From assembly GCF_014873145.1 (NCBI RefSeq), contig NZ_JADBEK010000001.1, positions 744,001 to 808,000 on the forward strand: DNA of 64,000 nt, in the 5' to 3' direction. The notes below the pieces were generated by a model. It saw only the letters and a list, made by a program, of their open reading frames with translations, ran no database searches and was not told the origin of the DNA. The position numbers and the translations under genes are program-made. Positions 22,536-49,778 of the stretch are shown here, piece by piece; position 1 is the first letter of the stretch; every line of letters begins with the position of its first letter. This DNA is from Nonomuraea angiospora. Lineage in GTDB: Bacteria > Actinomycetota > Actinomycetes > Streptosporangiales > Streptosporangiaceae.

Positions 22536-23537
22536 TCAGCCGTGCCGGGGGCGGGAGCTCTCGCGGGGGTGCAGCTCCGTCTGCAGCACCATCCGGGCCG
22601 CCGGCCGGGCCGGGTTGTCGATCCGGCCGGCCAGCAGCTGCGCCGCCGCCCGCCCCAGCTCGTACGTCGGCTGCCGGACCGTGCTCAGCCCGGGCCGGAA
22701 CAGCCGGGCCCACGGGATGTCGTCGAACCCGATCACCCCCACCTGCCCGGGGATCGGCACCCCCCGCTCGGTCAGGCACTCCACCGCCCCCACCGTCATG
22801 AGGTTGTTGGCCGCGAACACGGCGTCCATCTCCACCCCCTCGTCCAGCAGCGCCGCCATGGCCGAGTAGCCGCCCTCCTCCCGGAAGTCCGCGTGCCGCA
22901 CCAGGGCGCGATCCACCGGCACGCCGGCCGCGCGCAGCGCCCGATGGTAGCCGCGCAGCCGCCGCATGGCGGTGGACATCCGCCGCGGGCCCGTGATGCA
23001 CGCGATCCGCCGGTAGCCGGACGCCAGCAGGTGGGCGGTCGCCATCTCCGCGCCCTTCTCGTTGTCCACCATCACCGCGTCGACCTCGGTCTCGGCCAGC
23101 TCGCGGTCGATGGTGACGACGGCGGTGCCGGCGGCGACCAGGGCGGAGATGTCCGTCGAGTCGTCCGCCGGGGAGATGATCACGCCGGCCATGTTGTCGG
23201 CCAGCGCCACCGCGATGTACTCGGCCTCCCGAGCCCGGTTCTCGTCGGTGTTGCACAGGACCACCGAGTACCCGAACTGCCGGCCCCCGTCCTCCACCCC
23301 CCGTACGAGAGAGGTGAAGAACGGGTTGCCGACGTCGGAGACCAGCACCGCCCACAACGTCGTCTGCCTGCGCCTGAGATTGCGCGCCACCCCGTTGGGC
23401 CGGTAGCCGAGCTCCCGCACGGCCGCGAGCACCCGTCCCGCCAGTTCCGGGTTGACCGTGGAACGGCCGTTGAGCACGCGGGAGACCGTCGCGGCGGAGA
23501 CCCCGGCGTGCCGCGCGACATCTTGGATCTTGATCAA
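22536..23537 (-). CDS. LacI family regulator of the GH172/MalEFG operon
   Basis: A 333-residue LacI repressor read from TTG 23537 (IKIQDVARHAGVSAATVSRV; no ATG or GTG is available in register). The hinge helix is GYRPNGVARNLRRRQ, then a periplasmic-binding-protein-like sensor domain. It is the last gene of the importer/GH172 operon and is preceded by an AATCGATT site at 23570. Its HTH is very like that of the second LacI (37538-38515), so both may see the same operators. The inducer is probably a pentose or arabinan oligosaccharide (inference). Confidence 0.92.
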   Translation of the reverse strand: MIKIQDVARHAGVSAATVSRVLNGRSTVNPELAGRVLAAVRELGYRPNGVARNLRRRQTTLWAVLVSDVGNPFFTSLVRGVEDGGRQFGYSVVLCNTDENRAREAEYIAVALADNMAGVIISPADDSTDISALVAAGTAVVTIDRELAETEVDAVMVDNEKGAEMATAHLLASGYRRIACITGPRRMSTAMRRLRGYHRALRAAGVPVDRALVRHADFREEGGYSAMAALLDEGVEMDAVFAANNLMTVGAVECLTERGVPIPGQVGVIGFDDIPWARLFRPGLSTVRQPTYELGRAAAQLLAGRIDNPARPAARMVLQTELHPRESSRPRHG

Positions 23538-23569
23538 CCTCGTCCGATCTCGGAGACAGGGGCAGGAGA

Positions 23570-23577
23570 AATCGATT
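23570..23577. promoter_or_regulatory. LacI-type operator AATCGATT upstream of the first LacI gene
   Basis: GAGAAATCGATTACG covers the stop codon of the GH172 gene, 33 bases before the LacI start. The same AATCGATT core recurs at 27887, 28726, 28741 and 38730, always beside genes of this locus. Suggests autoregulation. Confidence 0.6.
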
Positions 23578-24667
23578 ACGCCCGTGGGGACGGCGGCGGG
23601 AACGGCAACCGCTCCGCCACCGGCGCGAGCCCGAACGGCTTGTGCGGCAGCGTCTGGTACCAGAAGGCGACCGAGGAGAAGTCGTCCGAGCGCTTGTTGG
23701 CGTGGCCGTGCTCGATCGTCACCCTGATGGACTCGGTGAACGTGATCGGGTCCTCGACGTGGAAGCGGTAGAGGGAGATCTCGCCGCTCCAGTTGTCCCC
23801 GCCGGGCATGGTGATGCCGTGGTAGGGCGCGTGGTAGGTCTGCGTCGGGCACCACGCGGTGTTGAAGTAGTCCTCGGTGCCGGTGCCGTGCAGCGAGGGC
23901 GGGAACGGCTCCCCGTCGATGAAGATCATGTCATCGCCCTCGCCGTACCAGTTCCAGTCGCTGGTCTCGCGCAGGTTGCGGATGTTGAGCACGCAGCCCA
24001 CGTAGTGGCCGCGCCCCTCGGCGTCGAGGATGACGTAGTTGCCGTCGCCCGTGTCGTTGATGCCCTCGACCTGGTACTCGCGGTTGCTCTGGGTGCCCTG
24101 CGGGACCCCGTCGGTGGGCCGCTCGCGGCGCCACTGCGCGTGGAAGTAGCCGAGGTCCTCGGCCGCCGAGTCGAACAGCTCGTAGTCGACGTAGTAGTAG
24201 AAGAAGACCGGCTCGGCCGACAGCTCGCTGATCAGCTCCACCTTCGCGCGGCTCGCGAACGGCATGTGGAACCACGAGTTGAAGCTCTTGCCGTCCTGCG
24301 GGCTCATCTGCAGCGGCGCGGAGACGAAGTTCGCGGTCTTGGCGTGGCCCATGCCGAAGAAGTCGCCGAGCGGCACCAGCACGCTGGGGTGCTCCTGGTC
24401 GTCCCAGGTGATCTTCAGCACGAGCCTGCGCAGGTAGTCGACGTCCACCGCGTCCGGCACGTCCTTCAGCGGGAGCGCCACCGTGCACCAGATGTGGTTG
24501 ATCGAGCCGGGGCCCTCGATGTCGGCCAGGGTCACGGTGGTGCCGGCCTCGACGGTCAGCCGGTCCTCGTTGCCGCCCGTGCGGTCGTAGCTGGAGACCC
24601 GCTTGCGCCTGGAGGCCCGCAGCCGGGGCAGGTCACGCAGGCTGCTGCCGTGGTTGCCGTAGCTCAT
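23576..24667 (-). CDS. GH172 (DUF2961) glycoside hydrolase, intracellular
   Basis: A 363-residue protein without a signal peptide, close to the minimal size of the family. The conserved block HGTGTEDYF lies at residues 260-268 and is preceded by YGEGDDMIFIDGEPF, the region holding the catalytic acids in GH172. GH172 enzymes cleave alpha-D-arabinofuranosides and alpha-D-fructofuranosides. It is encoded right after two importer permeases, so it probably trims imported oligosaccharides in the cytoplasm. D-arabinan fragments are the likely substrate given the isomerase and kinase nearby. Confidence 0.9.
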   Translation of the reverse strand: MSYGNHGSSLRDLPRLRASRRKRVSSYDRTGGNEDRLTVEAGTTVTLADIEGPGSINHIWCTVALPLKDVPDAVDVDYLRRLVLKITWDDQEHPSVLVPLGDFFGMGHAKTANFVSAPLQMSPQDGKSFNSWFHMPFASRAKVELISELSAEPVFFYYYVDYELFDSAAEDLGYFHAQWRRERPTDGVPQGTQSNREYQVEGINDTGDGNYVILDAEGRGHYVGCVLNIRNLRETSDWNWYGEGDDMIFIDGEPFPPSLHGTGTEDYFNTAWCPTQTYHAPYHGITMPGGDNWSGEISLYRFHVEDPITFTESIRVTIEHGHANKRSDDFSSVAFWYQTLPHKPFGLAPVAERLPFPPPSPRA

Positions 24668-24679
24668 ATGTTCCTCGAT

Positions 24680-25477
24680 TCACTTCAATCCGGAGGTCTT
24701 GATCGCCTCGACCAGGCGGCGCTGGCCGAGCACGAACGCGATCAAGGTGGGCACGGCCGCGATCACCGTCGCGGCCAGGACGTAGTTCCAGGCCGAGCCG
24801 TACTGGCCCTGGAGGGTGGCGATGCCGACCTGCACCATGCGCAGCTCGGGGTCGCGGGTGGCGGTCAAGGGCCAGAGGAACGCGTTCCAGTTGGCCAGGA
24901 AGAACAGCACGGCGAGCGAGGCGAGCACGGGACGGCTGAGTGGCACGACCACCTGCCACCAGCGCCGGAAATATCCGCATCCGTCGAGATCTGCCGCCTC
25001 TTCGAGCTCGCGCGGGATCGTCAGGTAGTACTGCCGGAGCAGGAAGATCCCGAACGCGTGGAAGATCGCCGGCAGGATCAGCCCCGCGTACGTGTCGAGC
25101 AGCCCGAGCTGCCTGGCCACCAGGAACAGCGGCACGAGGATCACCGGCAGCGACACCAGCAGCGTGGAGACGATCATCGAGAAGATCACCTGCCGCCCGG
25201 GGAAGCGCAGCCGGGCCAGCGCGTAGGCGGCCATCGAGTGCAGCACGAGCGCGACCACCGTGACGGCCACGGAGACGACGAGGCTGTTGAGCATGTACCT
25301 GCCGATGGGCACCTCGGTCAGCACGTAGAGCAGGTTGTCCAAGGTGAAGCGGCTGGGCAGCGCCACCTCGAACAGCTCGTCCGCCGGCTTGAGCACCGTC
25401 ACCAGCAGCCAGACCAGCGGCGCCACCGTGACGGCCGCCAGCACGTACCCGACGAGGGCGCGCAGCCTAACCGACAT
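24680..25477 (-). CDS. Carbohydrate ABC transporter permease (MalG type)
   Basis: A 265-residue inner-membrane permease with six predicted helices and the EAA loop EEAADLDGCGYFRRWWQVVVP. It overlaps the preceding permease gene by 11 bases. It works with the MalF-type permease and the solute-binding protein upstream. No ATPase is encoded in this operon, so it probably uses a shared MsiK-type ATPase elsewhere in the genome, as is usual in actinomycetes. Confidence 0.95.
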   Translation of the reverse strand: MSVRLRALVGYVLAAVTVAPLVWLLVTVLKPADELFEVALPSRFTLDNLLYVLTEVPIGRYMLNSLVVSVAVTVVALVLHSMAAYALARLRFPGRQVIFSMIVSTLLVSLPVILVPLFLVARQLGLLDTYAGLILPAIFHAFGIFLLRQYYLTIPRELEEAADLDGCGYFRRWWQVVVPLSRPVLASLAVLFFLANWNAFLWPLTATRDPELRMVQVGIATLQGQYGSAWNYVLAATVIAAVPTLIAFVLGQRRLVEAIKTSGLK

Positions 25478-26417
25478 CGAACCTGCCTCCCTTCGTGAGC
25501 CCGAACATCAGCCCCGTGGCCACGACCAGGAACCCGACCACGACCGTGGTCAGCGCCGCCGCGTAGCCGTAGTTGTTGAAGGTGAAGGCCTGCTGGTAGA
25601 TGTAGAAGACCACGCTGGACGTGCTGTTGGCCGGACCGCCCTTGGTCAGCACGTAGACGAGGTCGAAGGCCTGCAGGCCGGTCACCGCGCCGACGGTGGA
25701 GTTGACCAGCACGAAGAAGCTGGTCGGGCGGAGCAGCGGCCAGATGACGTGGCGGAAGCGCTGCCACGAGGTGGCCCCGTCGACGCGCGCCGCCTCTTCA
25801 TACTCCTTGGGGATGTCCTTGAGCCCGCCCAGCAGGATCAGCATCTGATACCCCATGAGGAACCAGATGCTGATCACCACCAGTGACCCGAGCGCCAGCG
25901 CGGGGTTGCCCAGGAACGACACGTCGCCCAGCCCCACCGGCCGCAGCAGCGCGGGCACCGCGCCCTGCTTGTCGGCCAGCAGGAACTGCCACACCACGCC
26001 GACCACGACGAGGCTGATGACGTGCGGCAGGAAGAACATCGTGCGCACCAGGCCGACGCCGGGGAAGTGGTCGCGGACCAGCAGCGCGAGCCCGAGGCTG
26101 ACGACGAACCCGATGGGGACGAAGGTCACCATGTACGTCAGCGTCACCTTGACGCTCTGCCAGAGCTGCGCGTCCTCGGCCATCTGGCGGAAGTTGTCCA
26201 GGCCGACGTAGGTGTAGCCGCCGAACCCGTCCACGCTGAACAGCGACACGCCGACGGCCAGCACCATGGGGAGGCCGACGAAGACGAGCAGGCCGAGCAG
26301 GTCGGGCGCGACGAACACGTACCCGGCCAGCGCCTCTTTCCTGCGCCGGGTCCACCACACGCGGGGCGCGGCCTCGCCGGCGACCGCCGTACCCGGATCG
26401 ACCAATGTGGCCACCAC
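25467..26417 (-). CDS. Carbohydrate ABC transporter permease (MalF type)
   Basis: A 316-residue permease starting at GTG, with six to seven transmembrane helices and the EAA loop EEAARVDGATSWQRFRHVIWP. It forms a heterodimeric channel with the MalG-type protein (11-base gene overlap). It lies 78 bases after the binding-protein gene of the same operon. Confidence 0.95.
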   Translation of the reverse strand: MVATLVDPGTAVAGEAAPRVWWTRRRKEALAGYVFVAPDLLGLLVFVGLPMVLAVGVSLFSVDGFGGYTYVGLDNFRQMAEDAQLWQSVKVTLTYMVTFVPIGFVVSLGLALLVRDHFPGVGLVRTMFFLPHVISLVVVGVVWQFLLADKQGAVPALLRPVGLGDVSFLGNPALALGSLVVISIWFLMGYQMLILLGGLKDIPKEYEEAARVDGATSWQRFRHVIWPLLRPTSFFVLVNSTVGAVTGLQAFDLVYVLTKGGPANSTSSVVFYIYQQAFTFNNYGYAAALTTVVVGFLVVATGLMFGLTKGGRFDVG

Positions 26418-26495
26418 TACCGCCTCTCGCTCAGGGGGCCGCCCGCCGGGTGCCTCCGGCGCGGCTGTGCCCGTGGGATCGCGCCCGCGAGGGCG

Positions 26496-27845
26496 TCACA
26501 GCATGGCCGCACCCTTGTAGCCCTTCAGGAAGGTGTCGATCTTGGCGGCGGCGTCCGCCGCCGCCTTGGCCGGGTCCGCCCCGCCGAGCTGGGTGGCCTG
26601 GATGGCGTCCGAGACGGCCTTGTACACCTCGGGCGTGTAGCGGGGCTCGCCCCGGCCGCCCGGCACCACCTGCTCCAGGAACACCTTGAGCGCCGGCTTG
26701 TCGAACGCCCCCGCCGCCTTGGCCGCCTCCTGGACGGACTTGCGGGCCGGCAGGTTCGTCTTGACGACCGTGTTCCACTGACGGCCGCGCTCGACGCCGG
26801 CCGCGTCGGTGGCGCCCAGCGCCCAGGCGATGAACTTGGCCGCCGCCTCCGGGTTCGCCCCCTTGGCGTTGGCGACGAACGCCCACCCGCCGATGTCGGT
26901 GGTGTAAGTCCCGCCTTCGGGAACGGGGAGCCGGAACACCCCGTATGTGAAGTCCTTCTTCTCCTGCTCCAGCTGCGACACCGACCAGATGCCGCTCTGC
27001 TGCATGGCGACGTACCCGCTGGCGAGGTTCGCCGGGGCGTTGCCCGCGCCGTCGCCCTGTGGCTTGCGCGGCGCGACCTTGTTGTTGACCGCGTCCTGCC
27101 ACAGCTTCAGCGCCTGATGTACGCCGGGCGCGTCGAACCCGGCCCCGCCGCTCCCCGGCACGGCCGAGCCGCCGGCCATCCACATGAACGGGTACCAGGT
27201 GAAGTTCTGGTAGTAGCCGGGGATGGTCTCGAAGAGGATGCCGAACTGGTCCTTGGTGGTCAGCTTGGCGGCCACGTCCAGCAGTTGGTCCCAGGTCTGG
27301 GGGAGGTCGCCCTCGGCCAGCTTCGCCTTCTCGAAGGCGTCGACGCTATAGTACATGGCCAGCGGCTCTTGTTCCATCGGCAGGCCATAGACCTTGCCGT
27401 CCACCTTGCGCGTGTCGAGCACGCCGCCGTCGAAGTCGGCGATCTGGTCGGGCTTGAGGTGCGGCGTGAGGTCGGCCAGCACGCCGCCGTTGTGGTAGCG
27501 GAGGAAGTCGCCGGGGCTGAGCAGGAAGATGTCCGGCCCCTGACCGGCGGAGAACGCGGTCTGCAGTGCTGTGCCGGCGAGGTACTCGGAGACGGGCAGG
27601 TAGTGGAGCTTGACCTTGACCTCGTTGTTGGCGTTCCACGCCGCCGCCAGGTCGGTGAACCACTTGCTCTGCGCGTCGGCCTGCGGGTTGGGGCCGTAGA
27701 AGTTCCAGAACGTCAGCTCTTTGGCGTTGCCGCTCTTCCCGCCGCCCCCGCACGCGGACAGCAGCGGTGCCGCCATCGCCGACCCTAAGACGACGGCGCC
27801 GCCACGCAGCAGAGATCGGCGGGTCACCCTCTCGAAAGCCGACAT
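26496..27845 (-). CDS. Sugar-binding lipoprotein of ABC importer (MalE-like)
   Basis: A 449-residue extracellular solute-binding protein. The N-terminus MSAFERVTRRSLLRGGAVVL has a twin-arginine signal followed by a lipobox LLSAC, so it is anchored as a lipoprotein. The mature domain starts ELTFWNFYGPNPQ, typical of oligosaccharide-binding proteins. ATG 27845 follows AGGAGGATGCGAC. First gene of the operon, with a TTGACG-type promoter and AATCGATT operator directly upstream. Predicted ligand: short furanoside oligosaccharides (inferred from GH172). Confidence 0.95.
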   Translation of the reverse strand: MSAFERVTRRSLLRGGAVVLGSAMAAPLLSACGGGGKSGNAKELTFWNFYGPNPQADAQSKWFTDLAAAWNANNEVKVKLHYLPVSEYLAGTALQTAFSAGQGPDIFLLSPGDFLRYHNGGVLADLTPHLKPDQIADFDGGVLDTRKVDGKVYGLPMEQEPLAMYYSVDAFEKAKLAEGDLPQTWDQLLDVAAKLTTKDQFGILFETIPGYYQNFTWYPFMWMAGGSAVPGSGGAGFDAPGVHQALKLWQDAVNNKVAPRKPQGDGAGNAPANLASGYVAMQQSGIWSVSQLEQEKKDFTYGVFRLPVPEGGTYTTDIGGWAFVANAKGANPEAAAKFIAWALGATDAAGVERGRQWNTVVKTNLPARKSVQEAAKAAGAFDKPALKVFLEQVVPGGRGEPRYTPEVYKAVSDAIQATQLGGADPAKAAADAAAKIDTFLKGYKGAAML

Positions 27846-27886: not shown

Positions 27887-27930
27887 AATCGATTTCCCAG
27901 AAAGGTAGGCGTCGGCGGGGTTGGCGTCAA
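27887..27930 (-). promoter_or_regulatory. Promoter and LacI operator of the MalEFG/GH172 operon
   Basis: On the minus strand: TTGACG (27925-27930), 17-base spacer, TACCTT (27902-27907), then the operator core AATCGATT at 27887-27894, about where transcription would start. A degenerate second site (GAATCGATATC) sits upstream of the -35 near 27961-27970. The arrangement is that of classic LacI repression. Confidence 0.65.
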
Positions 27931-28045
27931 GAAGTTCCTGCTACGGCTTGCTGAATCAGGGAATCGATATCTCCTCGAGACCTGCAACCGCGCTCCGACG
28001 GGCAATTGGCGTCACGATGGCGCGTCCCTCGGTCTCCCGCTCCCG

Positions 28046-28158
28046 TGGATCCGACGCTCCCGTGCATCCGACGCCGTCTGGATCCGACGCCGTCTGGATC
28101 CGACGTTGCCTGGATCCGCCGTTGCCCGGACCCGAGGTTGCCTGGATCCGACGAGCAG
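28046..28158. repeat. 16-bp tandem repeat, seven copies
   Basis: Units close to TGGATCCGACGCCGTC and TGGATCCGACGTTGCC follow one another from 28046 to 28158, each containing a GGATCC core. They lie in the 900-base divergent region between the two importer operons and have no spacers, so this is not CRISPR. Possible DNA-topology element or simple slippage product. Confidence 0.8.
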
Positions 28159-28690: not shown

Positions 28691-28748
28691 TTGACGGCCT
28701 AGAAGGTCGGATCTAGGTTGAGGGAAATCGATTTCTGAGCAATCGATT
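28691..28748 (+). promoter_or_regulatory. Promoter with two LacI operators for the isomerase/RbsABC-type operon
   Basis: TTGACG (28691-28696), 17 bases, TAGGTT (28714-28719), then two AATCGATT cores at 28726-28733 and 28741-28748, 15 bases from start to start. The -35 block TTGACGGC is the same as at 38692. Tandem operators just downstream of the -10 imply tight repression. Confidence 0.65.
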
Positions 28749-28772
28749 TCTCGTATGCATGGAGGACAACCC

Positions 28773-30188
28773 GTGGCACGTATCGGAGTGCTGAGCATCT
28801 CGGACGGGCGGGACTTCGTCGCCCGCGATCTCGTTGAGCACATCACCCACGCCACCACCGCCCTCGCGGAGGCGTTGCGCAAGGAGGGCCACGAGGTCAT
28901 CGTGGCCCCGGAGATCGTGTGGACCAACGAGCTGGCCACGTCGCAGGCGCGGTGGCTGGCCGATCGCCGGCCCGATCTGACCATCTTCAACTACGCGGTC
29001 TGGGCCTTCCCGCACTTCACCATGCTGGCCGCCGAGTCCACCCCAGGGCCGCTGCTGCTCATGGCGAACATCGACCCCGCGCAGCCCGGCATGGTCGGCA
29101 TGCTCGCCGGCGGCGGTGGCCTGGACCAGATCGGCCGGGTGCACGCCCGCGCCTGGGGAGACATCGACGACCCAGCCGTCAGGGAGCGCGTGCTGACCGA
29201 GGTACGGGCCGCCCAGGCGGTCAGGGGCCTGCGCGGCTCGACGTTCGGCCGGATCGGCGGCCGGCCGATGGGCATGTACACCGCCGTCGCCAACACCGAC
29301 CAGTGGATGCGTACGTTCGGCGTCGACGTCGAGGAGATCGACCAGTGGGAGATCGTCCGGCGGAGTGAGAACGCCTCCCAGGCGCGGGTCACCCAGGCCC
29401 GCCAGTGGCTCGAGGCCAAGGGGAACGTGCACTACGACGGCAAGCAGCTCACGCCGGACCTGCTCGAACGCCAGATCCGCACGTACTACGCGATGCGCGA
29501 GCTCATCGACGAGTGGAACCTGGACTTCTCCGGCATCAAGGGCCAGCCCGAGCTGACCACCCACTTCTGCACGATGGACCTCGCCGAGGCCTTCCTCAAC
29601 GACCCGTACGACTGGGAAGGCCCGAAGGACACCCACGTCTGCGCCACCGAGGCCGACATGGACGGCGCGCTGACGATGCAGATCCTGAAGCTGCTGAGCG
29701 GCGACCCGGTGCTCTTCGCCGACGTCCGCCACTACCACGCGGACAAGGACGTCTGGGACCTGTGCAACTCCGGCCAGCACGCCACCTGGTACGCGGCCAG
29801 GTCCGACGACCCCGAGGAGAACCTCGCCAGGACGCACTTCTACCCCGAGGTGTTCTTCTTCCCGGCGGGCGGCGCGAGCGTGCACCACCTGGCGGCGCCC
29901 GGCGCCGCCACGTTCGCCCGCCTCACCCGCAGGGACGGCCGGTACCGCATGCACGTGATGCGCGGCGACTTCGAGCTGTACGACGACGCCACCAACGAGG
30001 CGATGGCCCGGCAGTCCACGTTCGAGTGGCCGCACGCGTTCACCAGGCTGCACGTGCCGGCCACCGAGTTCCTCGGGCGGTTCGGCTCCAACCACATCCA
30101 CGCGGTCCCCGGCGACTACATCGCCGAGCTGGAGGCGGTCTGCAAGCAGCTGGGCGTCGAGTTCGAGGGGTTCGGCGATGCGGCTTAG
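28773..30188 (+). CDS. L-fucose/L-arabinose isomerase family protein, probable D-arabinose isomerase
   Basis: A 471-residue cytosolic aldose-ketose isomerase. GTG 28773 is chosen because GGAGG lies 7 bases upstream, and that motif falls inside the alternative ATG 28755 frame. C-terminal fucose-isomerase-type segments include HVCATEADMDGALTMQILKL, FADVRHYHADKDVWDLCNSG and WPHAFTRLHVP, with the acidic and His residues expected to bind Mn. Fucose-type isomerases convert D-arabinose to D-ribulose. Adjacent GH172 enzymes and an FGGY kinase favour that role here. L-fucose to L-fuculose is the main alternative. Confidence 0.88.
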   Translation: MARIGVLSISDGRDFVARDLVEHITHATTALAEALRKEGHEVIVAPEIVWTNELATSQARWLADRRPDLTIFNYAVWAFPHFTMLAAESTPGPLLLMANIDPAQPGMVGMLAGGGGLDQIGRVHARAWGDIDDPAVRERVLTEVRAAQAVRGLRGSTFGRIGGRPMGMYTAVANTDQWMRTFGVDVEEIDQWEIVRRSENASQARVTQARQWLEAKGNVHYDGKQLTPDLLERQIRTYYAMRELIDEWNLDFSGIKGQPELTTHFCTMDLAEAFLNDPYDWEGPKDTHVCATEADMDGALTMQILKLLSGDPVLFADVRHYHADKDVWDLCNSGQHATWYAARSDDPEENLARTHFYPEVFFFPAGGASVHHLAAPGAATFARLTRRDGRYRMHVMRGDFELYDDATNEAMARQSTFEWPHAFTRLHVPATEFLGRFGSNHIHAVPGDYIAELEAVCKQLGVEFEGFGDAA

Positions 30189-32580: not shown

Positions 32581-34082
32581 CCACCGTCCTGGCGATGCGG
32601 GCCATCGGCAAGTCCTTCCCCGGCGTGCGGGCCCTCGACGGGGTGTCGCTCACCGTGGCGGAGGGCGAGGTGGTGGCCCTGCTCGGGGAGAACGGCGCCG
32701 GCAAGTCCACGCTGATGAACATCCTGGCCGGGGTGTTCAAGGACTACGAGGGCGAGATCGAGATCGGCGGCGAGGTGGCGCACATCCACTCGCCCAAGGA
32801 CGCGCGGCGGCACGGGATCGCCATGATCCACCAGGAGCTCAACCTGGTGCCCGAGCTGTCCGTCGCGGACAACATCTTCCTCGGCCGGGAACGCGCGCTC
32901 CTCGACCGCAAGGTCACCGAGGGGCGCACCGCCGAGCTGCTGCGCGGCCTCGGGCTCGACCTGTCGCCGCGCACGCTCGTCAAACAGTGCAAGATCGCCG
33001 AACGCCAGCTCATCGAGGTGGCCAAGGCACTGTCGCAGAACGTCCGCGTCCTGGTCATGGACGAACCCACCTCGGCCCTGGCCGACGCGGAGGTGCGGCG
33101 GCTGTACGAGGTCATCCGCGACCTGACCGGGCGCGGCGTGGCCGTCATCTACATCTCGCACCGGCTGGAGGAGCTGGAGGAGATCGCCGACCGGGTCGTC
33201 GTGCTGCGCGACGGCCAGTACATCGGCGAGCGGACCGGCATCAACCGGGACGAGCTCATCCAGATGATGGTCGGCCGTCCCCTGGGCGAGATGTTCCCGC
33301 GCGCCGGCGGCGCCACAGAAGGTGACGAGTTGCTGCGGGTCGAAGGGCTCTGCGTGCCGGGGGATCGGGACACCGGGCGCACGGCGCTGCGGGAGGTCTC
33401 GCTGACGGTGCGCACCGGGGAGATCGTCGGCGTGGCCGGGCTCATGGGCGCCGGGCGCAGCGAACTGCTCGAATCGATCTTCGGCGTGCACCGGCCGTCG
33501 GAGGGAGCGATCAGCCTGCGCGGCGCGCCGTACCGTCCCAGGAGTCCCAAGCAGGCGATCGAGCGGGGCGTCGCGCTGGTCGCCGAGGACCGCAAGGCGC
33601 AGAGCCTCGTGCTGGGCAACAGCGTGGCCTTCAACGCGAGCCTGTCATCGCTCGGCCGGTACCTGCGGTTCCGGACCGTGGACCGGCGGCGCGAGGGCGC
33701 GGCCGTCGAGCAGCAGGTGCGCGCGCTGCGGGTCAAGACGCCCGGACTGCGCTTCACCGTCGGCAACCTCTCGGGCGGCAACCAGCAGAAGGTCGTGCTG
33801 GCCAAGTGGCTGCTCACGGCGCCCTCGCTGATCCTCATGGACGAGCCCACGCGCGGCATCGACGTGGGCGCCAAGGCGGAGATCCACGCGCTCATGTCGT
33901 CGCTGGCCGCCGAGGGCAAGGGCGTGCTCGTGGCCTCCTCCGAGCTGCCCGAGCTGCTCGCCATGTGCGACCGGATCCTCGTGCTGTGCGAGGGCCGCAT
34001 CACCGCCGAGTTCCCGAGAGGCCAGGCGACGCAGGAGGCGATCCTCGAGGCCGCCATGGCAAGACAGCAGGTGACCACATGA
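32577..34082 (+). CDS. Sugar ABC transporter ATP-binding protein (RbsA/XylG type)
   Basis: A 501-residue double-ATPase. GTG 32577 overlaps the GH172 stop (GTGA). N-terminal Walker A GENGAGKSTLMN and Walker B VLVMDEPTSAL are intact. The C-terminal half has the expected variant GLMGAGRSELLE, a signature LSGGNQQKV and LILMDEPTRGIDVGAK. It energises import of a monosaccharide with the permease and binding protein that follow in overlapping genes. Confidence 0.97.
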   Translation: MTTVLAMRAIGKSFPGVRALDGVSLTVAEGEVVALLGENGAGKSTLMNILAGVFKDYEGEIEIGGEVAHIHSPKDARRHGIAMIHQELNLVPELSVADNIFLGRERALLDRKVTEGRTAELLRGLGLDLSPRTLVKQCKIAERQLIEVAKALSQNVRVLVMDEPTSALADAEVRRLYEVIRDLTGRGVAVIYISHRLEELEEIADRVVVLRDGQYIGERTGINRDELIQMMVGRPLGEMFPRAGGATEGDELLRVEGLCVPGDRDTGRTALREVSLTVRTGEIVGVAGLMGAGRSELLESIFGVHRPSEGAISLRGAPYRPRSPKQAIERGVALVAEDRKAQSLVLGNSVAFNASLSSLGRYLRFRTVDRRREGAAVEQQVRALRVKTPGLRFTVGNLSGGNQQKVVLAKWLLTAPSLILMDEPTRGIDVGAKAEIHALMSSLAAEGKGVLVASSELPELLAMCDRILVLCEGRITAEFPRGQATQEAILEAAMARQQVTT

Positions 34083-38691: not shown

Positions 38692-38737
38692 TTGACGGCT
38701 GTCAGGTCGCGATTATACGTTCATCCAGAAATCGATT
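38692..38737 (+). promoter_or_regulatory. Promoter and LacI operator of the secreted arabinanase-like gene
   Basis: TTGACG (38692-38697), 16 bases, TATACG (38714-38719), then operator core AATCGATT at 38730-38737 in CAGAAATCGATTACT. It drives the gene at 38822 and possibly the four hydrolase genes after it. The second LacI starts in the opposite direction at 38515. Confidence 0.65.
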
Positions 38738-41499: not shown

Positions 41500-42972
41500 G
41501 TGAGAAGCAGGATCCTGTTATCGGTGACGGCCCTGTCGGCCGGCGTCCTCCTCATCCCGCCCGCCCCGGCCGCCGCGGCCGGGCCCCGCCCCGACTTCCG
41601 CGCCCCGTGGCCGTGCGGCCAGGTGCGGGACTACTACCACCACTCCGGCGAGGTCGCCAACGCCATCGACTTCAACATCGCCGGCTCCGGCGACCTCGGC
41701 ACCCCCGCCCTGGCCTCGGCGCCCGGCACGGTGATCGAGACGGTCACCGGCCACCCCGGCTACGGCAACTACGTCCGCGTCGACCACGGCGGCAGCTGGA
41801 CGAGCCTCGTCGCGCACCTGGACCGGATCACGGCCGCCAGGGGCCGGTGGGTGGACTACGGCGCCGAACTCGGCAAGGTCGGCAGCACCGGCAACTCCAC
41901 CGGCCCGCACCTGCACTACGAGCAGGAGGCCGACGGCGGCAACCAGCCGATCGTCATCGACGGCGTGGCTCTCCGCTACAGCGAAGCCGCGGCCAAGCAC
42001 ACCAGCGGCAACTGCGGTGGCGGCGGCCCGCTCCTGGGCGGCTCTCCGGCGGACTTCGACGGTGACGGCAAGGACGACATCGTGACCTTCACGCACGGCG
42101 CGAACGCCGACGTCTACGTGGCGAAGTCGACCGGCACCGCCTTCGACGGGACGTCGGTGAAATGGCACGACTACTTCGCGCTGAGCGGCGAGGTCCCGCT
42201 GACCGGGGATTTCACCGGCGACGGCAAGGACGACATCGTCACGTTCACCCAGGGATCCAGCGCCGATGTGTACGTGGCGCCGTCCACCGGCACGGGCTTC
42301 GGCGCCGCCGCGAAATGGCACGACTTCTTCGCGCCGAGCGGGGAGATTCCCGCGGTCGGCGACTTCGACGGTGACGGCAAGGACGATATCGCCACGTTCA
42401 CCCGTGGCACGGCCAACGACGTGTACGTGGCGCTGTCGACCGGGACCGGTTTCGGCGCGGGCGTGAAATGGCACGACTGGTTCGCGCTCAACGGCGAGTT
42501 CCCGGCCGTCGGCGATGTCGACGGCGACGGCAAGGACGACCTGATCGTCTTCACCCAGGGTTCGACGAATGACGTGTACGTGGCGCTGTCCACCGGGACC
42601 GGCTTCGGCCCCGCCGCCAAGGTGCACGACAATTTCGCGCTCGCGGGTGAGCAGCCGCGGGTCGCGGACGTCAACGGCGATGGCAAGGACGACATCGTCA
42701 CGTTCACCAACAACGGCCTCGGTGATGTGTGGGTCGCCGTTTCCGACGGCCGGGGCTTCGGCCCGGGCGTGAAGTGGAACGACTGGTTCGCTCCGAACGG
42801 CGAGTTCCCCTACACCGGTGATTTCGACGGCGATGGCAGGGACGACATCGTCACGTTCACCAAGGGCGCCACGAACGACGTCTTCGTCGGCCTGTCGAAC
42901 GGAACATCGGCCTTCGGCGCCGGCGTCAAGTGGCACGACTTCTTCGGCCTCGACGGCGAAACCACCCTCTGA
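41500..42972 (+). CDS. Secreted M23 peptidase with FG-GAP repeats; TTA codon in signal peptide
   Basis: A 490-residue exported peptidoglycan endopeptidase (GTG 41500). After the signal peptide, the M23 domain spans about 35-150: zinc ligands in [14 protein letters not shown] and GPHLHYE. M23 enzymes cut peptide crosslinks of peptidoglycan. Residues about 180-490 are six FG-GAP repeats nearly identical to those of the next two proteins. Codon 7 is TTA (41518-41520), so translation should depend on the bldA leucyl-tRNA and therefore on developmental stage. Confidence 0.9.
42016..42190 (+). repeat. Near-identical DNA block shared with 45550-45724
   Basis: The linker and first FG-GAP repeat of the M23 gene (from GGTGGCGGCGGCCCGCTCCT) match the amidase gene at 45550-45724 almost base for base, including the Gly-rich linker. 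This implies recent duplication or gene conversion. Confidence 0.85.
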
Positions 42973-42985: not shown

Positions 42986-44458
42986 ATGCGCAAGTCCCGA
43001 ATCGGCCGCGCGTTATCCGTCACCGCGGGCGCGCTGGCGATCGCCGCGGCCTCGGCCATGCCCGCCCAGGCGGCCCCCGACCCCGGCAAGCACCGCTCCA
43101 ACGCCGAACTCCTCCTCGCCTGCCCGTCCGTCCCCGCCGGCCACGACCAGTGGGTGACGACCGCCGTGTACCGGGTCGGCCGCAGCCTCAACGCCAACGA
43201 CAAGGTGATGCTCGCGGCGTTCGAGACCGGCTGGGTCGAGTCCCACATGAACAACCTCAACTGCGGCGACAAGGACTCCCTCGGCGTCTTCCAGCAGCGC
43301 CCGAGCCAGGGCTGGGGCACCCCTGAACAGATCCTCGACGTCAGCTTCGCCGCCAACTCGTTCTTCACCCGGGCCATCAGGAACGACGCGGCCAACCCCG
43401 GCTACACCCCGGGCCAGCTCGCCCAGAGCGTCCAGCGCTCCGCCTTCCCCGACCGCTACGACCAGTCCGAGGCCAAGGCCCGCTCGCTCCTGAACGAGGC
43501 CGCCTGGATGCACGGCATGCAGGCGGCCTCGCCGGCGGACTTCGACGGCGACGGCAAGGACGACATCGTCACGTTCACCAAGAACGCCTCGGCCGACGTG
43601 TACGTCTCCACCTCGAGCGGCACCGCTTTCAGCGGGACGTCGGTGAAGTGGCACGACTTCTTCGGGCTGGGCGGCGAGACCACCTACACCGGCGATTTCA
43701 CCGGTGACGGCAAGGACGACGTCGTCACGTTCGCGCACGGCTCCAGCGCCGACGTGTACGTGGCGCCGTCCACCGGCACGGGCTTCGGCCCTGCCGCGAA
43801 ATGGCATGACTTCTTCGCGCCCGGCGGCGAGATCGCGGCGGTCGGCGACTTCGACGGCGATGGGAAGGACGACATCGCGACCTTCGCCCGCGGGACGACA
43901 CAGGACGTCTTCGTGGCCCTGTCCAGCGGGAACGGGTTCGGCGCCGGCCAGAAATGGCATGACTTCTTCGGCCTGAACGGCGAGTTCCCGGCGGTGGGTG
44001 ATGTCAACGGCGATGGCAAGGACGACATCATCGTCTTCACGCAGGGTTCGACGAATGACGTGTACGTGGCGACGTCCACCGGGACGGGTTTCAACGCCGC
44101 GGTGAAGGTGCACGACAATTTCGCGCTCGCGGGTGAGCAGCCGCGGGTCGCGGACGTCAACGGTGACGGTAAGGACGACATCGTCACGTTCACCAACAAC
44201 AATCTCGGTGATGTGTGGGTCGCGATTTCGGATGGTCAGGGCTTCGGTCCGGGCGTGAAGTGGAACGACTGGTTCGCTCCGAACGGCGAGTTCCCCTACA
44301 CCGGTGATTTCGACGGCGATGGCAAGGGCGACATCGTCACCTTCACCAAGGGCGCCACGAACGACGTCTTCGTCGGCCTGTCGAACGGCACCACGGCCTT
44401 CGGCGCCGGGGTCAAATGGCACGACTTCTTCGGCCTCAACGGCGAAACCACCCTCTAG
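42986..44458 (+). CDS. Secreted lysozyme/transglycosylase-like protein with FG-GAP repeats; TTA codon
   Basis: A 490-residue exported protein 13 bases after the M23 gene (CCAGGAG upstream of ATG 42986). The N-terminal domain (about 30-180) has KVMLAAFETGWVESHMNNL, with a Glu placed like the catalytic Glu of lysozyme-fold transglycosylases, then DSLGVFQQRPSQGWGTPEQI and AANSFFTRAI. It probably cleaves the glycan strand of peptidoglycan. Six FG-GAP repeats follow. Codon 10 is TTA (43013-43015). Confidence 0.85.
   Translation: MRKSRIGRALSVTAGALAIAAASAMPAQAAPDPGKHRSNAELLLACPSVPAGHDQWVTTAVYRVGRSLNANDKVMLAAFETGWVESHMNNLNCGDKDSLGVFQQRPSQGWGTPEQILDVSFAANSFFTRAIRNDAANPGYTPGQLAQSVQRSAFPDRYDQSEAKARSLLNEAAWMHGMQAASPADFDGDGKDDIVTFTKNASADVYVSTSSGTAFSGTSVKWHDFFGLGGETTYTGDFTGDGKDDVVTFAHGSSADVYVAPSTGTGFGPAAKWHDFFAPGGEIAAVGDFDGDGKDDIATFARGTTQDVFVALSSGNGFGAGQKWHDFFGLNGEFPAVGDVNGDGKDDIIVFTQGSTNDVYVATSTGTGFNAAVKVHDNFALAGEQPRVADVNGDGKDDIVTFTNNNLGDVWVAISDGQGFGPGVKWNDWFAPNGEFPYTGDFDGDGKGDIVTFTKGATNDVFVGLSNGTTAFGAGVKWHDFFGLNGETTL
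43984..44458 (+). repeat. Near-identical FG-GAP-coding DNA, copy 1 (copy 2 at 46032-46506)
   Basis: The last three FG-GAP repeats of the lysozyme-like gene match those of the amidase gene with only a handful of differences over about 475 bases, third codon positions included. The M23 gene carries a more diverged copy at about 42498-42972. Confidence 0.85.
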
Positions 44459-44472
44459 AAGGAGCCGGAACA

Positions 44473-46506
44473 ATGCAGTGGAAGCATGTGCGTAAGACCG
44501 CGTTATGCGCGGCCGTCGGCGGGCTGCTGCTCACCGCCAGGCCCGCCGTCGCCGCCGAGCCGGACGGGCTGGACAAGGCGTTCGCCGACGCGACAGCGGA
44601 ATATCAGGTCCCCAAGGACCTGCTCGTGGCGGTCGGCTACGGTGAGACGCACCTCGACGGCCACGACGGCGCACCCAGCAGCGACAACGGCTACGGCGTC
44701 ATGCACCTGGCGAGCAATCCGCAGCACAAGACCCTCGAACAGGCCGCCGAGCTCACCGGCGAGTCCGAGACCGACCTGAAGAGCGACACCGCGGCCAACA
44801 TCCGCGGCGGCGCGGCGGTCCTGCGTGCCCTCGCCGACCGCGCGGGGCTCGACGCCTCCAAGCGCAAGGACGTCAACGCCTGGTACCCGGCCGTCGCACG
44901 CTACAGCGGCGCCGCCGATGACCGGGTGGCCCGCCTGTACGCCGACACCGTCTACGGCCTGCTCGCCCAGGGCATCAAGGCCGAGGTCGTCGTCCGGCCG
45001 CGCGAGGTGCGGCCGGAGCGCGGCACGTACGAGAAGGTCAAGCCCTTGGCGGCCACCACCGGCGAGCCCCAGGCCGGCGTCCTGAGCACCGACTACCCGC
45101 CCGCGCACTGGGTGCCCGCCAACGGCAACAACTACTCGCCCGGCCGCTCCAGCCCCATCCGCAAGGTCGTCATCCACGTCACCCAGGGCTCGTACGCCGG
45201 CACGATCAGCTGGTTCCAGAACCCGTCCGCGCAGGTCAGCGCCCACTACGTGATCCGCTCGTCCGACGGCGACGTCACGCAGATGGTCCGCGACACCGAC
45301 ACCGCCTACCACGCACGGTCCGCGAACGCCGAGGCCCTGGGCATCGAACACGAGGGCTTCGTGGACAACCCCTCGTGGTTCACCGACGCGATGTACCGAT
45401 CCTCGGCCGCCCTGACCCGCTACCTGGCCGACAAGTGGGGCATCCCGCGCACCCGCGCGAACATCGTCGGCCACAACGAACTGCCCGGCAACGACCACAC
45501 CGACCCGGGCCCGCACTGGAACTGGGACTACTACATGTCCCTCGTCAACGGTGGCGGCGGCCCGCTCCTGGGCGGCTCTCCGGCGGACTTCGACGGTGAC
45601 GGCAAGGACGATATCGTGACCTTCACGCACGGCGCGAACGCCGACGTCTACGTGGCGAAGTCGACCGGCACCGCCTTCGACGGCACGTCGGTCAAGTGGC
45701 ACGACTACTTCGCGCTGAACGGCGAGGTGCCGCTGACCGGCGACTTCACCGGCGACGGCAAGGACGACATCATCACCTTCACCCAAGGGGCGAACGCCGA
45801 CGTCTACGTGTCGCCGTCCACCGGGAACAGCTTCGGGGCGGCGGCCAAGTGGCACGACTTCTTCGCGCCGAGTGGTGAGGTGCCGGCGGTCGGCGATTTC
45901 GACGGCGACGGCAAGGACGACATCGTCACGTTCACCCGTGGCACGGCCAACGACGTGTACGTGGCGCTGTCCAACGACCATGGATTCGGCGCCGGAGTGA
46001 AATGGCATGACTGGTTCGCCTTGAACGGTGAGTTCCCGGCGGTGGGTGATGTCAACGGCGATGGCAAGGACGACCTGATCGTCTTCACTCAGGGTTCGAC
46101 GAATGACGTGTACGTGGCGACGTCCACCGGGACGGGTTTCAACGCCGAGGTGAAGGTGCACGACAATTTCGCGCTCGCGGGTGAGCAGCCGCGGGTCGCG
46201 GACGTCAACGGTGACGGCAAGGACGACATCGTCACGTTCACCAACAACAATCTCGGTGATGTGTGGGTCGCGATTTCGGATGGTCAGGGCTTCGGTCCGG
46301 GCGTGAAGTGGAACGACTGGTTCGCTCCGAACGGCGAGTTCCCCTACACCGGTGATTTCGACGGCGACGGCAGGGACGACATCGTCACCTTCACCAAGGG
46401 CGCCACGAACGACGTCTTCGTCGGCCTGTCGAACGGAACATCGGCCTTCGGCGCCGGGGTCAAATGGCACGACTTCTTCGGCCTCAACGGCGAAACCACC
46501 CTGTGA
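44473..46506 (+). CDS. Secreted transglycosylase-like plus N-acetylmuramoyl-L-alanine amidase with FG-GAP repeats; TTA codon
   Basis: A 677-residue exported two-domain hydrolase. Residues about 30-180 are transglycosylase-like ([27 protein letters not shown]). Residues about 215-355 form an Amidase_2/PGRP domain: [55 protein letters not shown], with zinc ligands in IHVT and PGPHW. Six FG-GAP repeats end the protein. It could cut both the glycan and the stem-peptide link of peptidoglycan. Codon 11 is TTA (44503-44505). Start 15 bases after the previous gene's stop. Confidence 0.9.
46032..46506 (+). repeat. Near-identical FG-GAP-coding DNA, copy 2 (copy 1 at 43984-44458)
   Basis: Counterpart of the block at 43984-44458. 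Silent-site identity shows recent exchange between adjacent genes. Confidence 0.85.
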
Positions 46507-46517
46507 AAGGCACGCGG

Positions 46518-49500
46518 ATGATGCGAAAGCTGCTCGCCGCGCTGGCGACGAGCCTGCTTCTCGTGGCCGCCCCCGTCGCTGTGACGGCGCAGCCCGCTGT
46601 CGCGGCGGCGGGGGCCGACAAGGGGCCGATCGGCTGGGACGTCTTCCGGCGCCTCGACCGGCTCCCGTACCTGAGCCCCGGCACCCAGACCCGGCAGTTC
46701 TCCAGCTTCGACCGGGCCGGCGCCAACTTCCAGGACGGGTTCGGCGGCGTGTACTCCTGCCTGCGCACCTCGGGAAGCCAGTGCGTGATCGCCGAGGACA
46801 CCGGCGCCGGCGAGATCTCCTCGATCTGGTTCACCAGGGACGGCGGTGACGTGTCGGCCACTGGCACGATCACCATCGAGCTCGACGGCGCCGTCGTCGT
46901 CAGCGCGCCGCTGCAGAGCCTGGTCAACGGGCAGGTCGGCGGGCCGTTCGTCTTCCCGCTGGTGGCCAACGCCGACCAGAGCTCGGGCGGCGTCCACATC
47001 AAGGTGCCGATGCCGTACCGCCAGTCCATGCGGGTGTACACGCAGCACAACCCGCTCTTCTACCACGTCACCTACCGGCACTTCCCCGACGCGGAAGGGG
47101 TGCGGCGCTTCGACCCCGCCGAGAACGCCTCCGACGTCGTCGGCCTGCTGAAGGCGTCCGGCACCCGCGACCCCAAGCCGGCCCGGCCCGGCGCGCAGAC
47201 CGTCACCCAGAAGGCGAGCCTGACGGCGGGGCAGCAGCGCGAGTTCGCCCGGGTGACCGGCTCCGGCGCGATCTCCGCGCTGCGGGTGCGGGTCCCGGAC
47301 GCGTCGGCCACCGACGACACCCTGGCCGGGCTGCGGCTGCGGCTCGACTTCGACGGCCGTACCACCGTCGACTCTCCGGTCGGCGAGTTCTTCGGCGCCG
47401 GGCTGGGCGAGTACCCGGTCAAGTCGCTGCTGTTCGCCGTGGACACCGCGGGCGGCGGCTGGTACACCACGTGGTGGCCGATGCCGTACCGGTCCGAGGC
47501 CAGGGTCAGCCTGGTCAACGGCACCGGGCGCACGCTGGACGACCTGGAGGTGCAGGTCACCTCCGCGGCCGACGCCTCCTGGGCGGACGCGCTCGCGCCC
47601 GGCGGCCAGGCCGGCTACTTCACCACCGAGTCGCGGCGCGGCCCGGCCGTACGCGACTCCGACTGGCTGTTCTCCGACCGCACGGGACGGGGCAAGTTCG
47701 TCGGCGTCTCGCACACCATGAACGGGCTCATCTCCGAAGGTCTCACGCGGGAGTACCTGGAGGGCGACGAGCGCGCATACGTGGACGGCGCCCTGACGCC
47801 GCAGCTCCACGGCACCGGGACCGAGGACTTCTACGAGTCCGGCTGGTACTTCAACCGCGGGGAGTTCAACGATCCGCTGGCCGGCAACCCCGCGCACGAG
47901 AAGGCCGGCGGCGGCTGCCCGTACGAGTGCGACGCCGCGTACCGGCTCATGCTCTCCGACGGCGTGGAGTTCTCCTCCGCGCTCAGGTTCGGCATCGAGC
48001 ACGGCCCGCAGAACGACAAGCCCGCCACGTACGGCTCCACCGCGTTCCTCTACACGCAGCCCACCTTCGGCACGCATCGCACCGCCGTCCTCGACGTCGG
48101 CGACGCGGCCGGCAGGGCCGCGCACGACTACCGGGAGAGCGGGGCCGCCACCCAGGCCACGCTCGCCTCGGTGTACGAGGGGGACGAGGACCACCAGACC
48201 GTGCGAGGGGTGACGCGGTCCACGTCGAGCCCCGTGTCGTTCCAGCTCGGCGTGGACGCCGCCAACGCGGGCGTGCTGCTGCGGCGCACCTCCGACCAGG
48301 CTGCCGCCGGCCAGGCGGCCCGGGTCCTGGTGGACGGGGTGGACGTGGGCGAGTGGCGGCAGCCGCTCGGCAACGGCACCCAGCGCTGGCTGGCGGACAC
48401 GTTCGCGCTGCCGGCCGGCGCGACCGCGGGCAAGTCCGCCATCAGGGTCGAGCTGCGCCCCACCGCCGGCGCGCCCCCATGGACCGCCGCCCGGTACGCC
48501 GCCGACAGCCTCGTCCCGGCGCAGCACGCCGACGACCGGGCGCCCACGGCGGCCGAAGGGCCGTCCCTGGCCGGCGGCGACAGGCACGCCCTGCACCTCA
48601 CGTGGCGCGAGCCGGACGACGACCTCGGCATCCGCGAATACCGCGTGTACGGCTCCACCTCGCCGTCCGCGCAGAACACGCTGCTCGGCACCACCCGCGC
48701 GCCCGGCTTCACCCACGGCCCGCTGGCCGCCGGCGCGACCTGGTACTACCGGGTGGAGGCGGTGGACCTGTCAGGCCGCACGGCCGCCGCCGGGCCGGTC
48801 GTCTCCGGCCGCACCGGCACGCCCACCCGCACCGATCTCGACAAGGACGGGCGGGACGACGTGCTGACCTTCACCCGGGGGAGCACCGGCGACGTGTACG
48901 CCTCGCTCTCCGACGGGACGAGGTTCGTGCAGGACGGGTGGAAGTGGCATGACTCGTTCGCCGTCGGCCAGCAGATCGCCCTGACGGGTGACTTCGACGG
49001 CGACGGCCGCGACGACGCGGTGACGTTCACCCGGGGGAGCGCCGCCGACGTCTTCGTGTCGCTGTCCGACGGGACGAAACTCGTGCAGAACGGCTGGAAG
49101 TGGCACGACTACTTCGCCGCCGGCACGGAGATCCCCGCCGTGGGCGACTTCGACGGCGACGGGCGCGACGACATCGCGACCTTCACCCGGGGCGACTCGG
49201 GCGATGTCTGGGTGGCCCTGTCGACCGGGTCCGGGTTCGGGCCGTCGCGCAAGTGGCACGACCGCTTCGTGATCGGCGACGAGCTCCCGGCCGTGGGCGA
49301 CTTCGACGGCGACGGCCGGGACGACGTCGCGGCCTTCACCCGGGGCACCTCCGCCGACGTGTTCGTGGCGCTGTCCAGCGGCAGCGTCTTCCGGCACGAC
49401 GGGTGGCGCTGGCACGGCAACTTCGCGGTCGGCTCCGAGACCCCCGCCGTCGGCGACTTCAACGGCGACGGGCGCGACGACATCGCGACCTTCACCGGCG

Positions 49501-49778
49501 GTCCGGCGGCCGACGTCTTCGTGTCGCTGTCGGACGGCGGGAGGTTCGTGGAGAACGCCTGGAAGTGGCACGACAACTTCGCGGGCGGCGACCAGGTGCC
49601 GGGCGTCGGCGACGTCAACGCCGACGGCAGGGCCGACGTGATCGCCTTCACGCGGGGCGACGCCGCGGACGTGTTCGTGGCCACCTCGGAGACCGGCCGC
49701 TTCCAGCCTGCGCCGGTGAAGTGGCACGACCACTTCGCCGCCGGCACGGAGTGGCCGCAACCGAGCCAGATCCGCTGA
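46518..49778 (+). CDS. Secreted GH172 (DUF2961) glycosidase with Fn3 and FG-GAP domains
   Basis: A 1086-residue exported enzyme, ATG 46518, 11 bases after the amidase gene. After the signal peptide the DUF2961 domain runs about 35-500 ([29 protein letters not shown] at about 430). A beta-sandwich at about 570-670 is homologous to the duplicated one of the 800-residue GH172 protein; the inserted copy is absent here. Then comes an Fn3 domain ([20 protein letters not shown]) and six FG-GAP repeats of a different subtype (DGDGRDD) from the three preceding genes. Likely a D-arabinofuranosidase acting on polymer at the cell surface. Confidence 0.9.

Follow-up and report, generated by a model that had tools for sequence, protein, structure and literature searches.

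The D-arabinan polysaccharide utilisation locus (PUL) of Microbacterium arabinogalactanolyticum carries an importer, a GH172 enzyme, an isomerase and a kinase in one cluster (PMC10509167), and PUL42 of Dysgonomonas gadei holds three GH172 proteins, DUF4185 endo enzymes and a fucose-isomerase-like protein (PMC10115798). Such described loci consume the sugar, and the available parts of both papers describe no peptidoglycan hydrolases with them (PMC10509167, PMC10115798). We analysed a window of 64,000 nucleotides, that is, the whole stretch of DNA presented here, from the genome of Nonomuraea angiospora (13.09 Mb on one contig), and studied the locus at 22536..49778. It shares the sugar genes of these PULs and continues into five genes for secreted proteins, predicted peptidoglycan hydrolases among them. 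The locus is, in our view, likely a regulon for D-arabinan utilisation to which an operon of secreted wall hydrolases has been added. The observations that carry this reading are the gene content, homology, predicted fold, spacing, a shared module, operator-like sites, recurrence in other genomes and the lack of an Emb-type arabinosyltransferase match in the host.

The 3′ part of the locus encodes five secreted proteins on the plus strand: a propeller protein with a GH183-like domain, a second beta domain and an FG-GAP module (38822..41422), an M23 peptidase (41500..42972; Peptidase_M23, E value 1.4e-20), a muramidase-like, GH184-related protein (42986..44458), an N-acetylmuramoyl-L-alanine amidase with a weak SLT-like N-terminal domain (44473..46506) and a GH172 protein with a stretch similar to 1k85, a chitinase A1 chain (46521..49778; E value 0.0013 to 1k85). 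FG-GAP repeats close all five consecutive genes, and this 9 kb accounts for 25 of the 38 FG-GAP_3 matches in the whole genome. The original prediction had claimed matching C-terminal modules, which holds for their presence on all five genes, but their identity is uneven: those of the M23, muramidase-like and amidase genes share 86-93% identity with each other in the window, while the propeller and GH172 modules are 71-74% and 52-54% identical to them, respectively. The modules of the same three genes are 84-91% identical within Streptomyces calvus and 62-67% identical between the window and S. calvus; by these comparisons, they have been homogenised within a genome. In sequence, the module resembles chains named secreted esterase, 9oee (1.3e-13) and 8w20 (8.5e-7). 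The available parts of the literature give 8W20 as an entry of the umbrella particle (PMC11062931) and the UmbA4 propeller as a lectin for wall glycan (PMC13274773); 9oee, unlike 8W20, is not among the entries named in the umbrella-particle text. Because of the similarity to the umbrella entry and the glycan binding of UmbA4, it is a reasonable guess, by analogy, that the FG-GAP module is a wall-glycan lectin.

We then considered the hydrolases that carry this module (hereafter, tagged proteins). The lysozyme-like protein found no Pfam match at an E value of 10, but a profile of 21 sequences of its muramidase-like domain matched the muramidase structures 8b2h (1e-9) and 8b2e (4.5e-7), with the 8b2h match spanning about 75 of 141 positions. 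Both entries are named in a paper on GH184 muramidases, which, in its available part, reports that bacterial members exist (PMC10394673). The predicted transglycosylase-amidase was recovered in its amidase half (Amidase_2, 1.1e-31), but the transglycosylase half is weak (SLT, E value 0.011, below the cut-off). The Nonomuraea genomes searched hold untagged paralogues of the amidase at other loci, with 58-62% identity; the tagged version may therefore have been recruited from a household enzyme.

Upstream of these genes and of the sugar genes, we identified the operator-like core AATCGATT, which occurs five times in the window (23570, 27887, 28726, 28741 and 38730) against 0.06 expected, a count reached in none of 100 shuffles; this is a post hoc motif, obtained by comparing intergenic stretches, and its expectation was then computed over the whole window. 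All five sites lie just upstream of gene starts of the locus: LacI 1 (23570..23577, with a 2-base overlap with the end of the GH172 gene), the sugar-binding protein operon (27887..27894), the isomerase operon (two tandem sites, 28726..28748) and the propeller gene (38730..38737, about 85 bases before it, between the propeller and the divergent LacI 2). No site in the window fitted a generic LacI pattern with ends of TG/CA. The gaps within the propeller operon are 77, 13, 14 and 14 bases, with no AATCGATT inside, and therefore a single operator may govern all five genes.

The sugar genes begin on the minus strand with, from low to high positions, LacI-family repressor 1 (22536..23540; Pfam LacI and Peripla_BP; start inferred, with a longer open reading frame (ORF) to 23855), a GH172 protein in which no signal peptide was seen (23576..24667), two CUT1-type permeases of an ATP-binding cassette importer (24680..25477 and 25467..26417; BPD_transp_1) and its sugar-binding protein (26496..27845; SBP_bac_1 / SBP_bac_8). 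They continue on the plus strand with a member of the L-fucose/D-arabinose isomerase family of FucI type (28755..30188; Fucose_iso_C/N1/N2), a secreted GH172 protein without FG-GAP module (30178..32580), an importer with approximate gene starts, consisting of an RbsA-type ATPase (32580..34082; ABC_tran, two stretches), an RbsC-type permease (34100..35134; BPD_transp_2) and an RbsB-type binding protein (35131..36102; Peripla_BP_4), and an FGGY kinase (36102..37541; FGGY_N/C), which is xylulokinase-like (XylB, 2.7e-87, below the XylB cut-off) and presumably a D-ribulokinase. LacI-family repressor 2 (37538..38515; Pfam) follows on the minus strand. The isomerase, the kinase, both importers with the sugar-binding protein and two permeases of the CUT1 type, both LacI proteins, M23 and Amidase_2 passed the Pfam cut-offs. 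Every gene class of the original prediction was thus recovered at its place by Pfam, NCBIfam and frame reading, and gene content and homology bear out its D-arabinan-type enzymes and D-arabinose-type pathway. Between the sugar-binding protein and isomerase genes, short GGATCCGACGCCGTCT-type repeats were seen by eye (window about 28040-28180), and the minus-strand ORF 28012-28662, with no Pfam match, is probably no gene. Just past the locus lies a beta-lactamase-like protein with an ORF12-type N-terminal domain (51597-52937), which is retained in Nonomuraea jabiensis.

With a DUF2961 cut-off of 27 bits, the GH172 proteins at 23576-24667, 30178-32580 and 46521-49778 scored 295, 218 and 206 bits (5e-88, 1.4e-64 and 8.5e-61), and a whole-genome PF11175 search found no GH172 beyond these three. 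One is cytosolic and two are secreted, as had been predicted, with the secretion read by eye from signal-peptide-like N-termini. The nearest solved relatives of the cytosolic protein are alphaFFase1, 4kq7 and DgGH172c. Its catalytic Glu pair aligned at E243/E265, with Cys273 as in DgGH172c, and the pair is retained in 46521-49778 (aligned) and 30178-32580 (by eye); in DgGH172c, the pair is E233/E254 according to the available text (PMC10115798). Gly299 of alphaFFase1 is reported, likewise in partly available text, to accommodate fructose, and its equivalent in the D-arabinofuranosidase ExoMA1 is Asn253 (PMC10509167). This Gly of the alpha-D-fructofuranosidase subgroup is missing in all three GH172 proteins, being Cys in the cytosolic one, as in the D-arabinofuranosidase DgGH172c, and Tyr in both secreted ones (one by eye). 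The residue speaks against fructan as the substrate and is no proof of D-arabinose.

For the propeller protein, DUF4185 was not listed when the whole protein was compared with Pfam at an E value of 0.01, and the domain scanned alone gave a DUF4185 match of E 9e-10 at 38.7 bits, which does not reach the curated PF13810 cut-off of 39.5; the whole-genome PF13810 search scored it at 36.9 bits. A structure model was built on an alignment of 72 sequences, made of the window and 71 of the 80 loci described below (L124, L134, L148 and L159 were left out for frame breaks or stops, as were L147, L149, L151, L152 and L155); a model from 11 sequences was poor (predicted local distance difference test score 59.9) and was not used. 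The predicted fold is the EndoMA1 propeller fold. Moreover, the catalytic Asp pair of EndoMA1 (D33, D51) is matched by D30/D48 in domain numbering, invariant in 72/72 sequences and with the same spacing of 18, an equivalence read by hand from the motifs without structural superposition. Comparison with seven DUF4185 sequences by hhalign gave 96.5% probability over 174 columns, with both Asp motifs outside, and the profile of a separate alignment found nothing useful among PDB sequences (best 6mnj, 0.0077). The predicted DUF4185-like propeller is thus upheld in modelled fold and Asp pair, with a score short of the curated cut-off; the third acidic residue is considered below. Model and motifs support a propeller whose fold and catalytic Asp pair are like those of GH183, a divergent GH183-like enzyme and a possible new family. 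A second DUF4185-like protein, below the cut-off (32.6 bits) and with DUF5005 similarity, lies at a distance in the host genome (G000:C1:7518939-7519337; L005:775-1998).

The surroundings of propeller genes were studied in the best 80 of 83 confirmed propeller loci from named genomes, with flanks fetched up to 10 kb. GH172 was found within the flanks of 39 of the 80 loci, a further DUF4185-like gene in 17 (4 of them weakly, at 70-74 bits), and one or both in 42. FGGY kinase occurred in 15/80 and FucI in 10/80 at an E value of 1e-6 (15/80 at 1e-5 for FucI), and none of the four was present in 37/80, a group in which some contigs are short. Tagged peptidoglycan hydrolases were counted in samples of 54 Nonomuraea genomes, 354 of the Catellatospora family (Micromonosporaceae) and 392 Streptomyces drawn from a larger group, and they adjoin the propeller in 10 of the 31 genomes that hold one. 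Among Nonomuraea, 11 of the 54 genomes carry the propeller and three such an array, namely the window, N. jabiensis (the nearest of the named genomes, with a propeller 97% identical), whose array is without M23, and N. cypriaca. The latter is spread over two contigs, one with tagged propeller and M23 genes and the other with tagged muramidase, amidase and GH172 genes; the two are likely adjacent, and the genome was counted on its propeller contig alone. G281 has a tagged propeller and a truncated tagged GH172, and no array stands behind the propeller in G287, G141, G292, G298, G003 and G188 (the G003 contig starts some tens of bases before the propeller and, read downstream, has no tag and no array). 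In G287 (L015/L016), the propeller has a shortened FG-GAP module and is followed by a transposase-like ORF, by eye (20100-21344 in propeller orientation). In G100 (L019/L020) and at L085:10001-12193, the FG-GAP tail of the propeller ends like the last array gene of a relative, the GH172 gene in the case of G100, which suggests that the genes between were lost by FG-GAP repeat recombination, apparently twice independently. A second propeller lineage without FG-GAP, in N. cypriaca (L103, also with GH172) and N. longispora (L105), adjoins a sulfatase-like gene, by eye, and may have a different substrate.

The combination recurs outside Nonomuraea. In the Catellatospora family, 7/354 genomes hold the propeller, and in four of these (C. 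bangladeshensis, Catellatospora sp. KI3, M. yasonensis and G798) tagged muramidase and amidase lie beside it, with an importer and a cytosolic GH172. The amidase tag is visible in three of the four; the amidase of C. bangladeshensis reaches the contig end with its tag out of view, and this genome was counted on its tagged muramidase. In Catellatospora KI3, a further FG-GAP protein (L090:20558-21517, minus strand) is cut by the end of the stretch, and its last residues are like the end of the tagged M. yasonensis GH172. Of the 392 Streptomyces genomes, 13 hold the propeller and 25 the muramidase clade (E value 1e-40 or better), with both in 2 genomes only; each of these two has one array of propeller, M23, muramidase, amidase and DUF4185 genes, all tagged. 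A third, G457, has a tagged propeller-M23-DUF4185 array, and G644 and G674, with partial propeller matches only, were counted as without array. Streptomyces outside the draw that bear propellers, such as S. physcomitrii and S. oceani, are not in the 10/31 count; S. oceani has an untagged muramidase away from its propeller. The array DUF4185 member scored 391.5 bits in S. calvus (3e-103 to EndoMA1), 397 bits in G624 and 388 bits in Catellatospora KI3, so its assignment is beyond doubt and other genera hold a true GH183-type domain where the window has the tagged GH172; an EndoMA1-type DUF4185 domain is present in 5/10 tagged arrays. In 25 other Streptomyces muramidase loci, no FG-GAP match was found, and a Pfam-confirmed DUF4185 gene lies within 3 kb of the untagged muramidase in four of them (L263, L268, L280 and L281), an independent pointer to this pairing. 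AATCGATT was also present at matching places in Nonomuraea relatives, wherever these were covered, and it precedes the arrays of S. calvus, G624, G457, M. yasonensis, G798 and the two named Catellatospora. Taken together, four observations support a link between peptidoglycan hydrolases and D-arabinanase-type enzymes, namely the operon-like spacing, the module in common, the operator-like sites and the recurrence across three families.

We further studied the wall that such a set could address. Emb-type arabinosyltransferase (PF04602) had no match in the host genome, with Corynebacterium glutamicum as positive control, so D-arabinan is likely foreign to the host. No galactofuranosidase or mycolate esterase was seen among the Pfam matches of the scanned locus genes; with these and GH116 not seen, the set looks short of complete arabinogalactan degradation. 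The gene set would cut D-arabinan and peptidoglycan, with galactan and mycolates spared, and a loosening of the sacculus together with arabinose feeding fits better than full digestion of arabinogalactan. An attack on living cells would require passing the outer mycolate layer. The attack-and-feed system of the original prediction is thus partly supported, in its D-arabinan part and in the joint deployment of wall hydrolases, while its activities and prey are putative.

Several observations weigh against a D-arabinan regulon with wall hydrolases. PF04685, which we take to be the model of GH116, has no match in the host genome but matched in 3 of 14 controls. GH116 is the family to which the beta-D-arabinofuranosidase of the Microbacterium locus belongs, as the partly available description of that locus states (PMC10509167). 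The host genome has just two DUF4185-like matches, both of them below the cut-off. At the place of EndoMA1 E243, the propeller has Gln255 by hand alignment, with no Glu found there; hhalign puts this region in another register, and E243Q nearly abolished EndoMA1 activity according to the available text (PMC10509167). The propeller is thus a candidate member of GH183 in the strict sense. Adjacent tagged hydrolases are missing or not demonstrable in 21 of the 31 propeller genomes, including five Nonomuraea in which the order of the utilisation genes is kept (G287, G141, G100, G292 and G281), and the 19 kb fetched from S. physcomitrii contain a tagged M23-muramidase-amidase set but no propeller. 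AATCGATT is not specific to the regulon, with 9 copies in 363,652 bases from 25 Streptomyces loci without array, and the core is probably a common LacI-type site. In the Catellatospora family, muramidase and amidase genes oppose the propeller direction or lie beyond a LacI gene and are not one operon with it, so joint control would need a shared divergent region. Enzyme activities, module binding and induction by D-arabinan are predictions from sequence. In S. physcomitrii, the propeller lies elsewhere, in a D-arabinose-type locus, and a GH20 hexosaminidase with DUF346 repeats (L222:13325-16024) diverges from the tagged set.

These points bear differently on other explanations. The target might be D-arabinofuranose or an arabinan-like polymer of other organisms, such as other actinomycetes or lipopolysaccharide and pilin glycans, which the peptidoglycan hydrolases merely free; propeller relatives in Paenibacillus, Bacillus, Niabella, Acidobacteria and gut metagenome-assembled genomes, and the sulfatase-like neighbours of the untagged copies in N. 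cypriaca and N. longispora, point this way. However, half of the tagged arrays carry the EndoMA1-type DUF4185, whose characterised members cut arabinogalactan and lipoarabinomannan in the available accounts (PMC10115798, PMC10509167), and we regard a different polymer as unlikely, with some weight left to it. A chance landing of a repeat-rich cassette, functionally unrelated to the sugar genes, would suit the 8 of 11 Nonomuraea without hydrolases beside the propeller, FG-GAP repeats that seem prone to recombination and collapse, the propeller-less S. physcomitrii set and the amidase paralogues. It is improbable given a combination repeated in three families, whose genes keep one order in the window and in two Streptomyces, the operon-like spacing, and an operator-like site that precedes the S. 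physcomitrii set too.

The remaining explanations concern the sugar or the host. Remodelling of the host's own wall has a parallel in mycobacterial GH183 enzymes, thought in the available text to act on their own walls (PMC10115798), but the lack of an Emb match and the operator-like sites common to the catabolic isomerase, kinase and importers leave it very little probability. A fructan or difructose-anhydride locus of the alphaFFase1 type would explain why the cytosolic GH172 scores best against alphaFFase1 (1.4e-87); with Cys or Tyr at the Gly299 position, and an isomerase, a pentulose-type kinase and DUF4185 neighbours unsuited to fructose, we hold it to be highly improbable. The FucI-like isomerase would also serve L-fucose or another 6-deoxy sugar. 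E. coli FucI also accepts D-arabinose. The kinase scores higher with XylB than with FucK models and no aldolase is among the Pfam matches of the locus, which makes a 6-deoxy-sugar pathway very unlikely. The fructan, L-fucose and self-remodelling readings were set aside on the Gly299-position residues, the kinase scores and the missing Emb match, respectively.

For the D-arabinan regulon, we propose that LacI-type repressors would occupy AATCGATT before the sugar-binding protein operon, the isomerase operon, LacI 1 and the propeller operon, and that an inducer derived from D-arabinose would free these operators. The propeller operon would then yield five secreted proteins sharing one kind of FG-GAP module, which may bind some target-wall glycan and thereby gather the GH183-like arabinanase, GH172, M23 endopeptidase, muramidase and amidase on one arabinogalactan-peptidoglycan sacculus. 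D-arabinose and D-arabino-oligosaccharides would be imported via the CUT1-type and Rbs-type systems, the cytosolic GH172 would trim the oligosaccharides, and the isomerase and kinase would convert D-arabinose to D-ribulose and on to D-ribulose 5-phosphate. Here we infer the substrate, the module function, the regulation and whether the prey is alive or dead. A bolder version is tentative and rather doubtful: several soil actinomycetes might kill and feed on living mycolic-acid bacteria by conserved, lectin-guided and sugar-induced wall lysis, with one module type directing endo- and exo-arabinanases, muramidase, amidase and endopeptidase to the same arabinogalactan-peptidoglycan layer, and with the propeller founding a new D-arabinan-acting family next to GH183. 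In that version, the propeller may supply a linkage cut, for example at beta-D-Araf ends, for which a host GH116 was not found.

A jointly regulated set reaching both covalently linked layers would supply enzymes for the analysis of mycobacterial-type envelopes and would make it possible to test, in one concrete case, whether bacteria in soil feed or prey on mycolic-acid bacteria, and the FG-GAP module is a directly testable binder candidate for arabinogalactan or its junction with peptidoglycan. Among titles and abstract starts of the open-licence PubMed Central literature, we found no D-arabinanases and FG-GAP-tagged peptidoglycan hydrolases in one locus; the original prediction, too, knew of no description of this side-by-side arrangement. 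Phage lysis cassettes serve the release of phage from their own host. Those of actinobacteriophages with DUF4185 also join a D-arabinanase to host-wall lysis, as the available text reports (PMC10115798), whereas sugar import and catabolism are absent from them. The Microbacterium PUL has four GH183 enzymes and GH116, whereas no GH116-type enzyme was found here and a divergent relative of GH183 takes the place of the endo enzyme; neither a peptidoglycan hydrolase nor a shared C-terminal module is described for that PUL in the available part of its paper (PMC10509167). D. gadei PUL42 differs in being a Bacteroidota PUL, with no mention of peptidoglycan hydrolases in the available text (PMC10115798). 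The muramidase-like domain is linked to GH184 by its profile matches to 8b2e and 8b2h, but this similarity is remote, and the characterised GH184 enzymes are, in the accessible text, fungal and mostly equipped with an SH3-like wall-binding domain instead of FG-GAP (PMC10394673). The umbrella toxin UmbA lectins share with this locus a module that matches the 8w20 chain, in an unspecified part of it, and a wall-glycan-binding propeller in UmbA4, as far as the available texts go (PMC13274773, PMC11062931); in the umbrella the module belongs to a toxin particle, whereas here it tags wall hydrolases.

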